Below are positions 2,471-9,781 of a stretch of DNA of 10,449 bases, piece by piece; the first letter of the stretch is position 1, and each line of letters begins with the position of its first letter. Under the pieces are notes generated by a model. The model saw nothing but the letters and a program-made list of their open reading frames with translations. It was not told where the DNA came from and searched no databases. The position numbers and the translations under genes are program-made. The stretch comes from Myxococcales bacterium (lineage in GTDB: Bacteria > Myxococcota > Polyangia > Fen-1088): contig PMCR01000333.1 of the NCBI GenBank assembly GCA_003155465.1, forward strand, positions 1 through 10,449, in the 5' to 3' direction.

Positions 2471-3586
2471 ATGGATTTTCGTCTGCCGTCTGGGACCTCA
2501 CGGTCGTTGTCAGTCGTCGCGTTGTTCGGGTTGGTTTTCCCGGCCGCATGTGGGTCAAGTAGCGCTCCGATGTGGGATGCGGGCGGAAGGCCGGCAGGGG
2601 CGCCGTGTGCCGCGACGAGCCAGTGCGTCGAGCCTTTGGGCTGTATCGAGTACGTGTGCAAGGGCCGGGACGCCGGATCATTTGTGGCCGAGACAATCTC
2701 GCGGGACGGCGCTACGGTTGCGGACACGTTCAATTTGACTGCTGAGACAAATCAGCGAGAGACTGCCGCAATGGCTGACGGGAGCATGGTCGGAGTTGCT
2801 GACAGCGTCCCATCGCCAAAGGCGGACGCAGGCATGCCAGATTCCAGCCTAGACAGGCCGGGGTCGGTTGATTTTCCCTCGCCACCGTCCGATGTGGCTT
2901 TTAGCGATGGACTATCTGCTCCGGATTCAACGTCGGCGAACCCCGACTCGTCGTCGGATGGCGGCAATCCATCGGACACAGTGGACCAGAGGGTCCTCGA
3001 CGCAGAAACTGTCGACACCTCGGCGTCCCCCGTTGATGGGCCGTCACCCGACGCGACCGGAACAGTTGATGTCCCGACCAGTTCAGATGCAGTCCCCTGC
3101 GTGGTCGGGGGCGCTTGCCTGGTTCCCGGCACAACCACCTCCGAGGGTGCAACCTGCGCAACGAACGGACAGATCTCCTGCACGGGCAGCAATGGCACGC
3201 CCGAGTGCCAGAACACTGGCTTCCCTCGCACCTGCTCGATCACCATGAACAGCGACGGCACGATCGCCTGGTACGGCCACAGCAACCAAACATATTGGAA
3301 CCCGAGTGTGTCAATATCCATTCCCGAGGGGAGCGTCGCCACCGGCGTAGCATGCGCCGCGACCTATATGGGGGTATCTTGGGGGCCGCGCTACTTTCCT
3401 TGCCTCGCGAAGTCCTCGCGGCTAGGCGCTCAGCTCCTTTGTGGCAGCGACAGTTCAGTCACGGGGACGGTCTGCTGTTCCTGCGCCGGCGTGGATCGTG
3501 ACACCTTGGCGGCATGCGTGGATGACGTTGCAACTCCCGCACCCGTCGGCGTCGTCCGGCAAATATTCGTTCTGCCATGCCAGTAG
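2471..3586 (+). CDS. Cys-rich lipoprotein sharing the upstream gene's N-terminus
   Basis: The 371-residue product is a predicted lipoprotein with lipobox FPAAC (C27). Its first 87 residues parallel those of the upstream gene: signal peptide, GAPC-x5-QC-x5-GC-x4-C motif (44-63), then ISRDGATVADTF. An Asp/Ser/Pro-rich linker follows (about 88-205). The C-terminal domain (about 209-371) is unrelated to the neighbour's propeller. It has around 14 Cys, including a CCSC cluster at 335-338, plus W/Y/G-rich segments such as AWYGHSNQTYW, and ends LPCQ. I do not recognise this domain. The Cys content implies disulfides in an oxidising compartment. The gene follows the propeller lipoprotein by 16 nt with a strong Shine-Dalgarno, so the two are probably made together and exposed on the same surface. 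Confidence 0.82.
   Translation: MDFRLPSGTSRSLSVVALFGLVFPAACGSSSAPMWDAGGRPAGAPCAATSQCVEPLGCIEYVCKGRDAGSFVAETISRDGATVADTFNLTAETNQRETAAMADGSMVGVADSVPSPKADAGMPDSSLDRPGSVDFPSPPSDVAFSDGLSAPDSTSANPDSSSDGGNPSDTVDQRVLDAETVDTSASPVDGPSPDATGTVDVPTSSDAVPCVVGGACLVPGTTTSEGATCATNGQISCTGSNGTPECQNTGFPRTCSITMNSDGTIAWYGHSNQTYWNPSVSISIPEGSVATGVACAATYMGVSWGPRYFPCLAKSSRLGAQLLCGSDSSVTGTVCCSCAGVDRDTLAACVDDVATPAPVGVVRQIFVLPCQ
2540..2731 (+). repeat. Paralogous N-terminal module, copy 2
   Basis: Codons 24-87 of the second lipoprotein, paired with 862-1053. Similarity stops near codon 88, where the low-complexity linkers begin and the two proteins diverge completely. Confidence 0.85.
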
Positions 3587-3673: not shown

Positions 3674-5023
3674 CTACTCATAGTCAAACGGATGCCCCAG
3701 CCTGAACCACGCCACCACCGTGGGATAGCTCTTGCCGAGCAGGGACATCGACTGGGTCCGGTAGCCCACGGTCCACAGGTTGATGAGCTGCGGATTGCCG
3801 GCTGGGTCCCTCTTCGTGTCCACGATGCCGATGTGGTCGTAGGGCGTGCCGTTCACGATGCCGGTGTCGAGCACTACGATGTCGCCCGGCTGCAACTCGC
3901 CCGCAGGCCCGATGGCGCCGATGGCAGCGTGCGCGCGCAGATAGGGCACGATGTTGCGCACGCGCCGGTGATCCAGGGACGGGTTGGGCACCTCGCCGCG
4001 TCTGCCGTAGCGGCGCGGGTGCAGCAGGCGGTCCTCGTAGATCAGGGCCTGCAGGTCGATGCCTGCTGAACGCAGCGCTCGCACGACGATGTCGCTGCAC
4101 ACGGCCTGGCCAGGGTCGATGTCGCCGCCGGGGAATGACAGCGTGGCTCCGCGCATGGCCTCGTGGGTGTAGATCGCGGGGGCCTGCAGTTGCGCCTGTG
4201 CGCCTGCAAGTACGGCCGCGGCCAGGTAGTTCGGCTCGTTCAGTCGGGTCTCATCCGCGGCGGAGGCGTAAACTTCGACACGTGTGCCCTTGCCGACGCG
4301 GTCGAACAGTGCGACGACGTCGGCGTCGTCGAGCGCCAGGCAACCGAGCGTCCAGTCGCGGCCCGAGCCGCCGCCGTGGATGTCGATGACACTGCCCAAG
4401 GCCGTGTGCTGAAGCGGCAATTGCCCGGCGCGCACCGCCCGCACGATGCGCAGGTAGACGTCGCGCTTGATCAGGCCGGCGGCCAAACCGCGGCGCGCGT
4501 CCTCGGCGTTGGGGTACGACACGCGCAGCCCGCGCGCGCCGGAAACGTCGTCCTTGGGCACAGCCTCGACCGCGGCGATGTAGAAGCGGCCCTCGGGTGT
4601 GGCCATGTCGCCCAGGCGTTGCTTGTCGCCCGCAGGCGCCTGCCAGGCGAGTCCCATGCGATAGGTCGCCTCCACACGTTCGCCATTGAGCAAGAACAGC
4701 TTGCGCTCCTTCTTCCACGCCTTGATCCACACATTCGACACCAGAGCCGCGGGCAGCCAGCCTTCGCGATCGACTCCTAGCCGCACGTGCTGCCAGCCGC
4801 CTTTGGTTTCCAATATGGTCACACTCTCGTTGGCGTCGGCCTCGTCGAGCACGCGCGCGCTGGCCGAGGGCGACGCTCGCAAGGGCGCCGGCCGCAGCGT
4901 GTACGGACGCGCCTGCGCCGGGGCCGCGACGGCAAGCAGCGCCAAGGCGCACAGGAATGCGCTGGTCGGACGCGCCTTCATCGGACCGAGGTTTCGCGGG
5001 TTGGGCCTACTTCCGGTTCGCAT
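3674..5023 (-). CDS. Secreted SH3 - L,D-transpeptidase (YkuD) - DUF1287 fusion
   Basis: The 449-residue product should act on peptidoglycan in the periplasm. Residues about 16-38 are a Sec signal peptide ending APAQA. A bacterial SH3-like domain follows (about 40-95: PLRASPSASARVLDE, GGWQHVRL, REGWLPAALV). The YkuD domain (about 98-252) carries TPEGRFYI and the catalytic signature IDIHG-x-GS-x-R-x-WTLGC, with H216, R222 and C228. The last third (about 295-449) matches DUF1287, a family I recall as related to NlpC/P60-type enzymes: VCSDIVVRALR (C309), DHRRVRNI, LQPGDIVV and DHIGIV (H397). YkuD enzymes make 3-3 crosslinks or attach proteins to peptidoglycan; the DUF1287 activity is not known to me. 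ATG 5023 has AGGA (complement of 5031-5034) 7 nt away; ATG 4981 would give a tighter signal peptide but no clear Shine-Dalgarno. It is second in an operon, 12 nt after the kinase-like gene's stop. Confidence 0.88.
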   Translation of the reverse strand: MRTGSRPNPRNLGPMKARPTSAFLCALALLAVAAPAQARPYTLRPAPLRASPSASARVLDEADANESVTILETKGGWQHVRLGVDREGWLPAALVSNVWIKAWKKERKLFLLNGERVEATYRMGLAWQAPAGDKQRLGDMATPEGRFYIAAVEAVPKDDVSGARGLRVSYPNAEDARRGLAAGLIKRDVYLRIVRAVRAGQLPLQHTALGSVIDIHGGGSGRDWTLGCLALDDADVVALFDRVGKGTRVEVYASAADETRLNEPNYLAAAVLAGAQAQLQAPAIYTHEAMRGATLSFPGGDIDPGQAVCSDIVVRALRSAGIDLQALIYEDRLLHPRRYGRRGEVPNPSLDHRRVRNIVPYLRAHAAIGAIGPAGELQPGDIVVLDTGIVNGTPYDHIGIVDTKRDPAGNPQLINLWTVGYRTQSMSLLGKSYPTVVAWFRLGHPFDYE

Positions 5024-5035
5024 CGGAATTTCCTG

Positions 5036-6853
5036 TCACCCAGGATTCCTGGGTATGTCGAGCAACAACTTCAGCCCGCCGAGAGCGCTGTCCTCGACGC
5101 GGGCTTCGCCATGCAGGCGGTGGACCGTCTGGAGCACGAGTTGCAGCCCCGTGCCGGCCGTCTCCCAGATCCGGCGTCGCTCCTCCGCCGGCATGCCGGC
5201 GCCACTGTCGCTGACGGCCACCTGGACCGTCGGAGCGCGCGGATCGCCCACCAGATAGGCCTCGACCTGCACTGTGGCTGGGCGCACCGTCGCCCCGGCC
5301 TGCGCGGCCCTTGCCGCGTTGTCGAGCAGGCTGCCGAACATCTGCTCCAGCCAGTCCCTTGGTGCCACCAGCGTCAGCGAGCCGCGGAGGGCAGAATCGC
5401 ACTCGAATTTGAAAGACACCTCGGGGTGGAGATCATGCCGAAGACGAAGCACAACGCTCAGCCAGTCGGCCAGGTTGACGCGAAGGAGGCGGCGAATCTC
5501 GTCGGCCATGGTACGGACGCGTTCGACCAGATCATCGAGGTGCAGGAACTGCTCGCGACCCAGTACCGGAGCTAGCGCCAGGCTCTCGGCCTCGGCGATC
5601 TCCTCAGCCATGGTGGTCTCGCCCAGCTGGCGTAGTATCGGGGCGAGCTGCCGAATGATCTGGAGCGCCACCTCGGATTCGCCCGGGGAGAGCTCGGCCG
5701 GGATGACTCTCGCGATCCGCTCGCGCGAGGTGGCGCTTCCGCGCGGCTGCGTCGGCAGGTTCGCGTACTGGTGCTTGATGATGTTGTGTCGGAGGGCTGT
5801 AACGGCGTTCATGACGTGGGCGGCGACGGCCGGTTCGTACTGAAAATAGAGCCAGAGCTCGTTCGCAAGCCGCTCGTCTACGTGCAGGCGGCTGGCGTCC
5901 ATCTCCGCCTTTGACTCATCCGAGGGCGGCATGAGCAGGAAGGCCTTCACCACCAGCACCCGCTCCAACTGACTCAGGTCATCCAGCCCCCGGAGCATGT
6001 CGGCCATCGCGGACGCGCCTAGCCGTCGCTGCGCGCTGATGCACTCCCAGAGCAGTGCCCGGTTGGGCGTCGGTCCCCGCGCCGTTGTCCGCCTGATGTC
6101 GGCCAGAAGGTCGAAGGAGGCTTTGGCCAGCGCTGGGTCGTCGAAGGTGGCCTGCGCCAGCGTTTCCGGGAAGTCGGTGGGGATGTTCAGGGTGCCCGAC
6201 AGGCCGAGTTCCCGCCGCATCTGCGCGAGCCGCGGGCGCCGCGACAGCGGCTCGGCCCCCAGCGCGGAACGCACGCGGGCCATCAGGGTGAGCGCCGGCG
6301 TTCGGTCCACCACTTCGTGAAGCACTGCCCACACGAGCCCGACCCCGAGCCAGCTGGTGAGCATGAGATTCACGGTCGCGTGGAAGCCCGTGGCCGGGGA
6401 GCGCCAAAGGAACAGGACCAGGGCGGCGAACGCCCCGGCTCCCAGCAGCAACAAGGCACGGAGCAGGCGCCGGAGGAGCGGGGCGTCCGCGAACGTCTCG
6501 CCCGGCAGGTTCGTCCGCTGCAGCACGATCAGCAACGCCACCGCGTGCGGCCAGGCCACCGAGATCCCGAGCGTGGGCTCGCGCAGGCCATCCTGGGCGA
6601 GGAACGCCAGCACGGCCCCCGCAAGGGGCCCAGGCGCCAGGACGAGGAACGCCCCCTCCGGCCGCCCGCGTCTGCGCAGAATTCTCTCGCCCAACTCGGC
6701 CAAAAGGCACGCGCCAACACCCAGCGCGACCCAGACCGCCACCATGTCCCACCCGAACGCCTGCCCTTCCAGCAGGCGCCATAGGATGGCGACCAGGATG
6801 TATTCCACGGCCAGATAGGCCGCAACAGATATGCCCAGCACGAACCGCATCAT
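5036..6853 (-). CDS. Six-TM sensor histidine kinase-like protein
   Basis: The 605-residue product is an inner-membrane protein with about six TM helices in residues 4-182. A long, mostly helical cytoplasmic region (about 185-480) follows, then a HATPase_c-type domain (about 478-601). ATP-site motifs are visible: N box LLDNAARAA (N512), G1 box DSGAG (549-553) and G2 box GTGL (567-570). The F box and usual ATP lid are nearly missing, because G1 and G2 are only 13 residues apart, and G2 reads GTGLQL rather than GTGLGL. No canonical H-E-x-x-x-P box is present; the best phosphoacceptor candidates are H346 and H356 (ALRHNIIKH, somewhat like the LRHD-x-x-NH boxes of AgrC/Spo0B-type proteins). There is no adjacent response regulator. 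It lies upstream of the cell-wall enzyme gene, so envelope sensing is a reasonable inference. ATG 6853 or ATG 6850 could start it; AGG upstream fits 6850 slightly better. A sigma-54-like promoter sits just upstream. Confidence 0.75.
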   Translation of the reverse strand: MMRFVLGISVAAYLAVEYILVAILWRLLEGQAFGWDMVAVWVALGVGACLLAELGERILRRRGRPEGAFLVLAPGPLAGAVLAFLAQDGLREPTLGISVAWPHAVALLIVLQRTNLPGETFADAPLLRRLLRALLLLGAGAFAALVLFLWRSPATGFHATVNLMLTSWLGVGLVWAVLHEVVDRTPALTLMARVRSALGAEPLSRRPRLAQMRRELGLSGTLNIPTDFPETLAQATFDDPALAKASFDLLADIRRTTARGPTPNRALLWECISAQRRLGASAMADMLRGLDDLSQLERVLVVKAFLLMPPSDESKAEMDASRLHVDERLANELWLYFQYEPAVAAHVMNAVTALRHNIIKHQYANLPTQPRGSATSRERIARVIPAELSPGESEVALQIIRQLAPILRQLGETTMAEEIAEAESLALAPVLGREQFLHLDDLVERVRTMADEIRRLLRVNLADWLSVVLRLRHDLHPEVSFKFECDSALRGSLTLVAPRDWLEQMFGSLLDNAARAAQAGATVRPATVQVEAYLVGDPRAPTVQVAVSDSGAGMPAEERRRIWETAGTGLQLVLQTVHRLHGEARVEDSALGGLKLLLDIPRNPG

Positions 6854-6880
6854 ACGCCTGACATGATCGGTTCTTGCTAC

Positions 6881-6896
6881 TGCAACGCTTGTACCA
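6881..6896 (-). promoter_or_regulatory. Sigma-54 (-24/-12) promoter candidate for the kinase-like operon
   Basis: On the minus strand this reads TGGTACAAGCGTTGCA, against the consensus TGGCACG-N4-TTGCW. It has GG-N10-GC spacing, a perfect TTGCA, and mismatches only at C4 and G7. Transcription about 12 nt past the GC would start near 6870, giving a 5' leader of about 17 nt before ATG 6853. Confidence 0.5.
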
Positions 6897-7006
6897 GGGC
6901 GCCACTGGCTGCGGAAAGGCCGATCCCCATCGCCGTCCGGTACGCGGTTTCAGGCTGGAACGCAGATGGGAACGGCGAGAGAGCTGGACAGGGCGAGCAG
7001 CACAGC

Positions 7007-7016
7007 ATCCGCGGAT
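7007..7016. promoter_or_regulatory. Palindrome ATCCGCGGAT, possible regulator site
   Basis: A perfect 10-bp palindrome centred about 85 bp upstream of the predicted rightward start and about 140 bp upstream of the leftward one. These are usual distances for sigma-54 enhancer-binding proteins. It is made of the same half-sites (ATCCGC/GCGGAT) as the palindrome at 7061-7070. Confidence 0.3.
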
Positions 7017-7060
7017 TCGATCTGTAAGAGCCCGGTGCCCGCGCAACGCCCTCGGGGACT

Positions 7061-7070
7061 GCGGATCCGC
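7061..7070. promoter_or_regulatory. Palindrome GCGGATCCGC abutting the -24 box
   Basis: A perfect 10-bp palindrome directly adjacent to the sigma-54 -24 element at 7071. It has the same half-sites as 7007-7016 in inverted order, with centres 54 bp apart. A protein bound here would probably interfere with sigma-54 polymerase, so if real it may be an operator. Confidence 0.25.
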
Positions 7071-7086
7071 TGGCACAGCCGTTGCT
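7071..7086 (+). promoter_or_regulatory. Sigma-54 (-24/-12) promoter of the microprotein-Sel1 operon
   Basis: TGGCACAGCCGTTGCT fits TGGCACG-N4-TTGCW at every conserved position except the seventh (A for G), with canonical GG-N10-GC spacing. Predicted transcription starts near 7097, about 91 nt before ATG 7188. Transcription from such promoters requires RpoN and an ATP-dependent enhancer-binding activator; neither is encoded in the window. Confidence 0.65.
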
Positions 7087-7113
7087 GTGAGTTGCGCTGT
7101 CAGCTCAAAGCCA

Positions 7114-7141
7114 TGGTGGATGAAATCCAAGGAGTCCACCA
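7114..7141 (+). promoter_or_regulatory. Leader hairpin in the predicted 5' UTR
   Basis: TGGTGGA (7114-7120) and TCCACCA (7135-7141) form a 7-bp stem with a 14-nt loop, in the predicted leader and about 35 nt before the Shine-Dalgarno. It overlaps an alternative in-frame ATG at 7113 and could hide it. A role is not established. Confidence 0.25.
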
Positions 7142-7175
7142 CTCGGATGCTCCGGCAGGGTTCGCGCCGGGCGTG

Positions 7176-7183
7176 AAAGGAGA
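7176..7183 (+). promoter_or_regulatory. Shine-Dalgarno AAAGGAGA
   Basis: A strong ribosome-binding site ending five nt before ATG 7188. It decides the start of the 21-residue microprotein over the in-frame ATGs at 7113 and 6966, which lack a comparable site. Confidence 0.75.
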
Positions 7184-7187
7184 AACC

Positions 7188-7253
7188 ATGCCTCTCATCT
7201 ATATTATAATCGCTGCTCTGGTGTGGGCTTTCCTCAGCGGGCTCCAAATGTAG
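7188..7253 (+). CDS. 21-residue membrane microprotein
   Basis: This very small gene encodes a peptide starting MPLIYIIIAALVW and ending LSGLQM. It has no charged residue and is hydrophobic throughout, so it should be a single membrane-spanning helix. Evidence that it is translated: an excellent AAAGGAGA Shine-Dalgarno at five-nt spacing, a predicted sigma-54 promoter 91 nt upstream of the start, and a position 32 nt before the next gene, which has its own GGAGG. I do not recognise it. Its size and composition resemble both single-helix regulatory subunits and small hydrophobic type I toxins, and no antisense RNA promoter is evident. An extension to ATG 7113 would give 46 residues (MVDEIQGVHH...) with a polar N-terminus and a poor ribosome site. 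The AT-rich stretch at 7200-7210 encodes IYIII and accounts for the local drop in GC. Confidence 0.6.
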   Translation: MPLIYIIIAALVWAFLSGLQM

Positions 7254-7285
7254 CGAGTCGGTAGTCACTCAACGGAGGTCGCGCC

Positions 7286-9781
7286 ATGACCCAGGTTCTG
7301 GAATTCGGCAGCAAGAAAGGCGCTGCGCTCGTGTGGGCCGTAATCCTCGCGACAGGGGCAGCCTGCGCGCAGGCGCCAGCGCGCGGGCCAGCGCCCGGCC
7401 CGGGCACGACGGTCAGCGGGACTGTTGCCAGCAAGCCACCAGGATTCGGGCCGACCTGCGAGGTCTCCCAGAAGGCATTCACCCCAGCTCTCGTCGGTGT
7501 GCGGCCTGTCGACCCGCCCGCGAAGGACGCGGATTTCACCAACTCCGGGGCTCTCGACAAGTTCTTGTCGGCTGGCGGGCATTCGCTGGCCATGAAGGAT
7601 AGTGGGGAGTGTTTCGACTTCGACCATGTGGTGAGCGGCGGAAGTCAGATGGGCATGCGTTCACGGGAGGCATGCGCCAGGATGTGGAACAGCTGCGATC
7701 GGGGACCGACCCTGGAAGTGGACGTCGCCCGTTGCATGCTGCCCTGCCGCTTGCTGAACGATCCGCCGCTGGAGGCTTGCGAGAAGGCCTGCGCGGTCGA
7801 TGGAACATCCTGTCGCCTCCTCGCGTACAGGCACCTCATGGGCCAGGGAACGCCGCGGAACGAGAGCGAGGCATTCCGGCTGCTTGAGAAGAGCTGTGCG
7901 GCAGGCGACCAGCTCGCTTGTTCCAAGCTGGGAAGCGCTCTCCTCGCCGGCGAGGGCGTCGCCAAGGACGAGCGCCGTGGTGTGGCTCTGCTCTCCGGTG
8001 CGTGTGACGCCCGGCTGGGCCTCGCGTGCGAATTGCTGGGCGACGCGCACGCCGAGGGTCAGGGCGTTCCGCAAGACGACGCGGCGGCCGTCGAACTGTA
8101 CCGGAAGGCCTGCGGGGCAGGGGGCCAAGAGGGAGACGGGAGCGGCGGGTGCACCAAGCTCGGCCGCATGTACCGCGCCGGCCGGGGCGTGCGGGCGGAC
8201 ACCTGCCTGGCCCACGGTGCGTTCGGCCTGGCCTGCGCCCGCAACGAGCCGGAGGGTTGCGCCGAGTTCTCGGAGGCGTACCTGCTCGGAACGGTGGTCG
8301 AGAAGGACCCGGCGCGTTGGGCTGAGTTGAACCAACGCTCGTGCGAAAAGAAGGAAAGGGCGGGGTGCATGCACCTGGCCCTGGGGGGCGGAGTCGTCGG
8401 CAGCGGCTCCGATCTCAAGCTGCTGGGGGCGCTGCAAGGGCGCGTCTGCTCTTCCGATGAGGACGACTCCGGAGCCTGTGCGGCCCTGCGGGTCGGGCTC
8501 AAGTGCCCGGAGGTCAGCAAGTCGATGTGCGCGGCCGCCGCGTACGTCTTCCTGGCGATGAACCAGACCAACGACTTCATCCCCTTCGAGTTGTTGCGGC
8601 AGACGTGCGAGCGCAGTGATCTGGCCGCGTGCCATTTCCTGGGTCTCCTCCACCGCGACAGCCGGGGTGTGCTCCACGACCCGGGCCGGGCCGAGGATAT
8701 CTTTCGTCGTGAATGCGAGAAGGGCGACGGGGACGGCTGCAGCGGGCTTGCACAGATGTGCGAGCGTGGCGACGGCGTTTCCAAGAACCTCGAGCGCGCC
8801 CTGGCTCTCCACGAAAAGGCCTGCGCCGCGGGCACCGCCGCATCATGTGTCTCTGCCGGCTTCCACTACGGCACCCCGACCGCGGCCACGAAGGACGATC
8901 TCACGCGCGCGGTCACCTTCTACCGGCGTGCCTGCGAAGATCTGAACGACGCGACCGGGTGCCGGAACCTGATCGTCGCACTGGGAAAGCTCGAGCCAGT
9001 TTCCGCTGACACACCCGACATCATGAAGACCCGCGAGCGGGCGTGCGCCCTCGGGGATCTCGATAACTGCTCGACGGTTGCCCTGGCCTTGCGCAGGGGG
9101 AAGGTCGAGCCGACCGAGCGCGAGCGCTCCAGTCGCCTGTTTCTTGCTGGATGCATGAACGCGCAGGAGAGCCGGCCGGGCGACTGCCTGGCCTACGGTG
9201 AGATGGTAGTGGCGGGGACGGTGCCCGCGGCCGAGGGCAAGGGGTCGGACTGGGCATTCGCGGAGGCATTCAGAAAGGCGCAGAAGGGTTGTGACGGTAC
9301 CGCGGTTGAGAACTGTTCGACCCTCGGCATACTCTACGAACTCGGGCGGGGAACTCCCAAGGATTCCGTGCGTGCATTCGCTGCGTACACGCGCGACTGC
9401 GACCGGGGCCTGTGCGCGAACGTCGGGTACGCCTATGCCGTGGGTGTGGGGGTTGTGCGCGACGAACGGCGAGCGCTGGAGGTGTTTCGGGAATCGTGCG
9501 CGACCCGCCCCGGCGACTACGCGTGCGCAAACCAGGGCTTCATGCAACTGCTCGGCCTGGGCGGGGCGCAAAGCAGGCCAAAGGCGCTGGCGCTGCTCCG
9601 GGCGGCAAAGTCCTCGATCGTCAATGGGCTCATCGACAGCTGCGACTCCGGGTGCGGCCGCGACTGCTCCATCCTTGGTGCCATCCTGCAGGCACGCGGG
9701 CAGAAGGCCGAGGCAGCCGAGAAGCTGAGGCGGGGCTGTACCCTGGGCGACGATCGGGCCTGCGAGCATCGGGTGCGCTGA
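7286..9781 (+). CDS. Exported Cys-rich Sel1-repeat protein
   Basis: The 831-residue product has an N-terminal export signal (hydrophobic core AALVWAVILATGAA) with likely signal peptidase I cleavage after ACAQA (residue 30). C27 lacks a good lipobox because Gly, not Leu, is at -3. An unrecognised Cys-containing region (about 56-165) is followed by Sel1-like helical repeats from about 170 to the end, of the type A-x-x-L-x-x-x-A-C-x7-C-x-x-L-G-x-x-x-x-x-G-x-G-V. Cys pairs spaced C-x7-C recur every 36-37 residues (204/212, 240/248, 441/449, 477/485, 513/521, 587/595). This is the pattern of Helicobacter Hcp-type Sel1 proteins, in which a disulfide pins each helix pair. These superhelical scaffolds bind partner proteins; the partner here is unknown. 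GGAGG at 7274-7278 sets the start. The repeats are degenerate in the middle (about 300-430). Confidence 0.85.
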   Translation: MTQVLEFGSKKGAALVWAVILATGAACAQAPARGPAPGPGTTVSGTVASKPPGFGPTCEVSQKAFTPALVGVRPVDPPAKDADFTNSGALDKFLSAGGHSLAMKDSGECFDFDHVVSGGSQMGMRSREACARMWNSCDRGPTLEVDVARCMLPCRLLNDPPLEACEKACAVDGTSCRLLAYRHLMGQGTPRNESEAFRLLEKSCAAGDQLACSKLGSALLAGEGVAKDERRGVALLSGACDARLGLACELLGDAHAEGQGVPQDDAAAVELYRKACGAGGQEGDGSGGCTKLGRMYRAGRGVRADTCLAHGAFGLACARNEPEGCAEFSEAYLLGTVVEKDPARWAELNQRSCEKKERAGCMHLALGGGVVGSGSDLKLLGALQGRVCSSDEDDSGACAALRVGLKCPEVSKSMCAAAAYVFLAMNQTNDFIPFELLRQTCERSDLAACHFLGLLHRDSRGVLHDPGRAEDIFRRECEKGDGDGCSGLAQMCERGDGVSKNLERALALHEKACAAGTAASCVSAGFHYGTPTAATKDDLTRAVTFYRRACEDLNDATGCRNLIVALGKLEPVSADTPDIMKTRERACALGDLDNCSTVALALRRGKVEPTERERSSRLFLAGCMNAQESRPGDCLAYGEMVVAGTVPAAEGKGSDWAFAEAFRKAQKGCDGTAVENCSTLGILYELGRGTPKDSVRAFAAYTRDCDRGLCANVGYAYAVGVGVVRDERRALEVFRESCATRPGDYACANQGFMQLLGLGGAQSRPKALALLRAAKSSIVNGLIDSCDSGCGRDCSILGAILQARGQKAEAAEKLRRGCTLGDDRACEHRVR

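Follow-up and report, generated by a model that had tools for sequence, protein, structure and literature searches.

The question raised by this locus is whether the gap between two divergent start codons contains a pair of sigma-54 promoters, and whether such a pair would form a single switch for the envelope-type gene sets on both sides. The gap covers positions 6854-7187 (334 nt), which is 3.2% of the window, the term used here for the whole 10,449-nt stretch of DNA that was analyzed. Based on consensus match and placement, two -24/-12 elements were recognized in it: TGGCACAGCCGTTGCT at 7071-7086 on the plus strand, assigned to the microORF and Sel1 genes, and TGGTACAAGCGTTGCA at 6881-6896 on the minus strand, assigned to the kinase-like gene. 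Re-reading of the sequence returned the same coordinates and strands for both sites as the preliminary description. A consensus scan also reproduced its mismatch counts against TGGCACGN4TTGCW (one for the plus site and two for the minus site), as well as the exact GG-N10-GC spacing, which is present together with TGG and TGC boxes in both sites. Each site indeed faces its gene at a suitable distance, the minus site ending 28 nt before the kinase ATG at 6853 and the plus site 102 nt before the ATG at 7188. In our assessment, the gap quite probably holds two real divergent RpoN promoters, one for each flanking gene set; promoter activity, start points and operon extents are what we infer from these sites.

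Chance levels differed strongly with the form of the motif. Taken by itself, GG-N10-GC spacing is frequent (254 occurrences in the window and nine in the gap, both strands included) and uninformative. When up to two mismatches were allowed, TGGCACGN4TTGCW matched five times in the window, where 2.15 matches would be expected, and five were reached in 15 of 200 shuffles; alone, this plain-consensus count is weak evidence for the sites. The degenerate form TGGYAYRN4TTGCW had just two exact matches in the window, which are the two gap sites facing outward, versus a mean of 0.011 over 3000 dinucleotide shuffles, a figure that is somewhat flattering since the form was picked with both sites known. 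Two matches were reached by approximately 1 in 3000 shuffles. The outward placement of both sites in the gap is evidence beyond motif rarity.

On the minus strand, the first gene (5036-6853) encodes a membrane kinase-like protein of 605 aa with a C-terminal HATPase_c domain (PF02518, 37.9 bits versus a cut-off of 26.4). This was its sole Pfam domain, with no match to a phospho-acceptor (HisKA-type) domain; NCBIfam kinase models scored far below cut-off on this protein, and its known-structure matches span the ATPase domain only. Homologue searches against 5.8 billion proteins, each limited to the scoring of about 8000 candidates, gave one close homologue each for the kinase-like and Sel1 proteins besides their own copies: P0002, which is 65% identical to the kinase-like protein and shares its Met-Met start, and P0124, at 65% to the Sel1 protein. 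Both are proteins from metagenome contigs, possibly from one sister lineage. The RHNIIKHQ segment common to the kinase-like protein and P0002 is a candidate phospho-acceptor stretch. The presumed second gene of this set (3674-5023, minus strand) encodes a protein with SH3, YkuD (L,D-transpeptidase) and DUF1287 domains according to Pfam, and lies 12 or 54 nt past the kinase-like gene depending on the choice of start. The start is probably at 4981, a position backed by the codon-score caller and by a 435-aa copy (P0003).

On the plus strand, a ribosome-binding site read from the sequence (AAAGGAG, 7176-7182) stands before a predicted hydrophobic microORF of 21 aa (7188-7253), whose translation, MPLIYIIIAALVWAFLSGLQM, had no NCBIfam match. 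The next gene (7286-9781, plus strand) encodes an 831-aa protein with Sel1 repeats (Pfam) and, by a crude rule, a hydrophobic N-terminus. Transcription is predicted to start at 6870 on the minus strand and at 7097 on the plus strand, in each case 12 nt beyond the C of the GC dinucleotide in the -12 box. The predicted leader measures 17 nt for the kinase-like gene (ATG at 6853) and 91 nt for the microORF (ATG at 7188). The plus site is spanned by an open frame of 95 aa (6966-7253); G+C at its three codon positions upstream of the microORF was 0.63/0.57/0.69, as compared with 0.68-0.74/0.47-0.54/0.81-0.85 in three window genes. Due to this weak codon-position bias, the stretch was treated as non-coding. 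A consensus scan of 6700-7400 detected no sigma-70-type site.

To place these sites in a wider context, we compared genomes of one bacterial class. The YkuD/DUF1287 protein has relatives at approximately 60% identity, some of them labelled Polyangia or Deltaproteobacteria, and its best locus in named genomes (L001, 56%) is in genome G001, which became the center of the genome comparisons. Judged by protein similarity, the window would belong to the class of G001, a class that was picked through this one protein relative. A search for orthologous gaps through the kinase-like protein yielded none: its alignment gave no relative in genome_contigs or viral_contigs, its matches in the eight genomes reached through loci were confined to the C-terminal kinase region, and only one match passed E 1e-12 in 317 class genomes (four candidates scored per genome). 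This sole match (L091) aligns only over residues 432-605.

The strict motif TGGCACRN4TTGCW occurred 597 times in 96 class genomes versus 180 times with the spacer lengthened by one base, and the correct spacing was ahead in 74 genomes, behind in nine and tied in 13. A backward-pattern control gave 158 occurrences for N4 and 530 for N5; since this control is sensitive to composition, we relied on site placement instead. Of the 60 strict sites sampled, 49 preceded a gene on their own strand, 43 of them by no more than 300 nt, and the rest were inside genes (five), before a wrong-way gene (two) or at locus edges (four). Only nine of 60 spacing-control sites were upstream of a same-strand gene, all within 300 nt, the others being inside genes (38), before wrong-way genes (five) or at edges (eight). 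Both sets of 60 were hand-picked from the listed sites and lean to the first-listed genomes, several sites being from one genome; genes in these relatives were called by the codon-score caller, and nine further regions that were read are outside all counts. A single strict site in this class is usually promoter-like. For the TGGTACR type, to which the minus site of the window belongs, half of the sites (10/20) were upstream of a same-strand gene, nine of the 20 within 300 nt, and the remainder were inside genes (seven) or before wrong-way genes (three); these 20 were also hand-picked from the listed sites, with four more left out, one of them near a contig end. Such a site is above control as a promoter, yet less certain than the strict type. 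The RpoN DNA-binding domain was detected in 92 of the 96 class genomes, and RpoN is presumed in the organism of the window.

A few observations on individual genomes accompany these counts. G044 (3.4 Mb) had 42 strict motif sites versus no backward-pattern controls, and its best RpoN-domain match was the weakest among the 92 RpoN-bearing genomes (E 4.1e-48). G009 had nine strict sites and no RpoN-domain match; its assembly is possibly incomplete. A 13.9-kb contig of G001 (L092, C260) carries strict sites at 3324-3339 on the minus strand and at 6409-6424 and 7480-7495 on the plus strand, two of which are identical 16-mers, and its minus site immediately precedes an 870-aa frame that has a hydrophobic segment close to the N-terminus. 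A bias toward secreted products behind strict sites was also considered: by the crude rule, a hydrophobic N-terminus was assigned to 25 of the 43 genes that follow strict sites versus 78 of 198 others in the fetched loci, and the p value of 0.028 was too weak to lean on.

The two window sites are separated by 174 nt (6897-7070). A class of 160-190 nt was set before any pairs of the relatives were seen, and nine divergent pairs fell within it, in nine of 317 class genomes. The neighboring classes contained none (100-130 nt), two (130-159 nt) and one new pair (190-220 nt; this class gave two, of which one was the pair at exactly 190 that had already been counted). Random scatter predicts approximately 0.25 pairs per class over the 317 genomes (based on 1808 half-sites in 96 genomes); real promoters are concentrated in gaps, which makes the neighboring distance classes a fairer control than this figure. 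After homologous-looking sets (L221/L222 and L223/L224) were collapsed, seven of 10 pairs were in one of the four classes (binomial p 0.0035). A limited search of open-licence papers gave no study describing a favored spacing of divergent sigma-54 promoters.

None of the nine 160-190-nt gaps (L221-L229) was overlapped by a called gene, and both flanking genes pointed outward in seven of them; of the other two, L221 runs into the end of its contig and L226 is flanked on one side by a distant gene in the wrong orientation. Flanking genes were examined beside these nine, part of them searched against Pfam, and L230-L232 were considered by position only. A response-regulator activator with a Sigma54_activat domain lies beside the pair in L222 and L223. 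Outer-membrane efflux proteins were also among the Pfam-matched flanking proteins, and both look-alike sets have activator and efflux genes. Other matches included OmpA/fasciclin (L225), a cation ATPase (L226) and Rieske/cytochrome b (L229), whereas a YHS match in L222 was below its cut-off. L227 has exactly 174 nt between its sites, with CsbD and DUF1328 small proteins alongside. In the L221/L222 comparison, both sites and a mid-gap block were kept and the remainder of the gap had diverged; the L223/L224 gaps were alike throughout, which makes them uninformative on conservation. Significant dyads were present between the sites in L222, L225 and L226, near the middle in L222 and L225, and seven of the 10 gaps tested in relatives had no significant dyad. 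The pairs in L221-L229 are like the window in having outward -24/-12 sites 160-190 nt apart, but their genes are unrelated to those of the window, and the adjoining activators (L222, L223) and dyads (L222, L225, L226) are features of those loci that were not found in it.

Within the window, an enhancer would be expected in the inter-promoter segment (6897-7070, 174 nt). The best dyad in this segment was no better than those of shuffles (97.5% do as well); as most of the tested gaps of relatives are also dyad-less, the missing palindrome is not decisive. The best direct repeat (6964-6979/6982-6997) was reached by 15% of shuffles, and no IHF-like site within two mismatches was found in the gap. 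The Sigma54_activat domain was absent from the seven window proteins searched with Pfam. With respect to the leader, Rfam gave no family at cut-off in the window, and the predicted fold of the 95-nt plus leader did not surpass those of shuffled versions (z -0.25); structured-leader control is therefore not proposed. In Desulfovibrio vulgaris, 23 operons have sigma-54 promoters and no predicted activator site (PMC4641369), and for this reason the absence of an enhancer site in the window is not a refutation.

Several other explanations were weighed against these results. The two sigma-54 promoters might have separate enhancers or activators, so that the gene sets answer different signals and no single switch exists. 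Such independence would agree with the lack of an enhancer dyad between the window sites and of activator domains among the seven proteins searched, and with gene sets that have no known functional link; we nevertheless consider it rather unlikely, since a distance of 174 nt in the enriched class would be explained most easily by a single enhancer halfway between the promoters. Such an enhancer would be about 113 nt away from either predicted start, a usual distance for looping. It is more doubtful still that the plus site alone is a promoter and that the kinase-like gene uses another one missed by the consensus scans. The two departures of the minus site from the consensus would fit this, as would the smaller share of promoter-placed sites within 300 nt for the TGGTACR type (9/20) than for the strict type (43/60), but the minus site lies just 28 nt upstream of a start codon, where the only homologue found has the same Met-Met, it shares the gap with a strong outward site, and no sigma-70-like site is present in 6700-7400.

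Least probable of all, and very unlikely in our view, is that the two sites arose by chance in GC-rich DNA, or that they make up an inverted repeat serving some other function. Chance would be favored by the G+C content of the window (65%) and by the plain-consensus count at two mismatches, which was not significant (5 versus 2.15); against it are the expectation of 0.011 for the degenerate form and the right placement and orientation of both sites. The two sites together do form a 19-nt inverted repeat (79%), but the letters they share are mainly at sigma-54 consensus positions, which argues against a different role for the repeat.

The preferred reading thus remains that of two divergent RpoN promoters. 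The preliminary description had gone further and proposed one RpoN-dependent switch. Its two sigma-54 promoters are upheld by the chance controls, by placement and by the behavior of the motif in related genomes, whereas the shared switch, for which geometry and analogy speak, did not gain comparable support. The geometry consists of a distance inside the enriched class, together with the dyad or activator gene that accompanies some of the pairs in relatives. A single activator driving both operons is plausible, and we would put its chances at about even. Under such an arrangement, RpoN holoenzyme would form a closed complex at each -24/-12 element, and an AAA+ enhancer-binding protein whose gene is not in the window would bind between or near the sites and remodel both complexes by looping. 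Transcription would start near 6870 for the kinase-like protein, probably together with the YkuD/DUF1287 protein, and near 7097 for the microORF and the Sel1 protein, and both gene sets would be off until the signal of the activator arrives.

Divergent sigma-54 pairs are already known (zraP/zraSR, hycA/hypA and orp1/orp2). In addition to its kinase, zraSR includes the activator ZraR, whereas the window has a kinase-like protein, no activator was found in it, and the other genes are different. By analogy with zraSR, the kinase-like protein may feed the activator envisaged above. In E. coli, the divergent units of hycA/hypA and zraP/zraSR flank a spacer to which RpoN holoenzyme binds (PMC8743547), an arrangement resembling that of the window; in zra, one of the two sides encodes a sensor kinase. 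A D. vulgaris study describes orp1/orp2 as divergent sigma-54 operons synchronized by one enhancer-binding protein (PMC3897727), similar to the outward site pair of the window; however, orp1/orp2 have their own palindromic activator sites, IHF sites and an activator gene in the cluster, none of which was found in the window, and the genes differ.

If the promoter assignment is true, an uncharacterized orphan kinase, a YkuD-type wall enzyme and a Sel1 protein would be under RpoN control, which fits the proposal that sigma-54 governs the bacterial exterior (PMC3162934). Sigma-54 has been linked to envelope functions in general (PMC3162934), and also to cell-wall genes in Myxococcia (PMC12316311). 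With spacing and placement controls from related genomes, the reliability of an individual sigma-54 site can be usefully gauged in an uncultured lineage with GC-rich DNA, and the concentration of divergent pairs around 160-190 nt offers a testable geometric rule for shared enhancers. A tentative extension, which we regard as somewhat unlikely, is that this class spacing rule (about 160-190 nt between -24 elements) reflects one midpoint activator hexamer serving both promoters, and that the activator of the window acts from elsewhere in the genome, joining the orphan membrane kinase, wall enzyme, microprotein and Sel1 protein as one envelope-response module.

Finally, two features were noted elsewhere in the window. 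The frame at 754-2454 on the plus strand and a neighboring frame ending at 3586 have alike cysteine-containing N-terminal stretches (AACGSSS...GCIEYVC...GRDAGSF), which resembles a tandem duplication. A 203-aa protein encoded at 113-724 on the plus strand contains two CarboxypepD_reg stretches that are similar in sequence.
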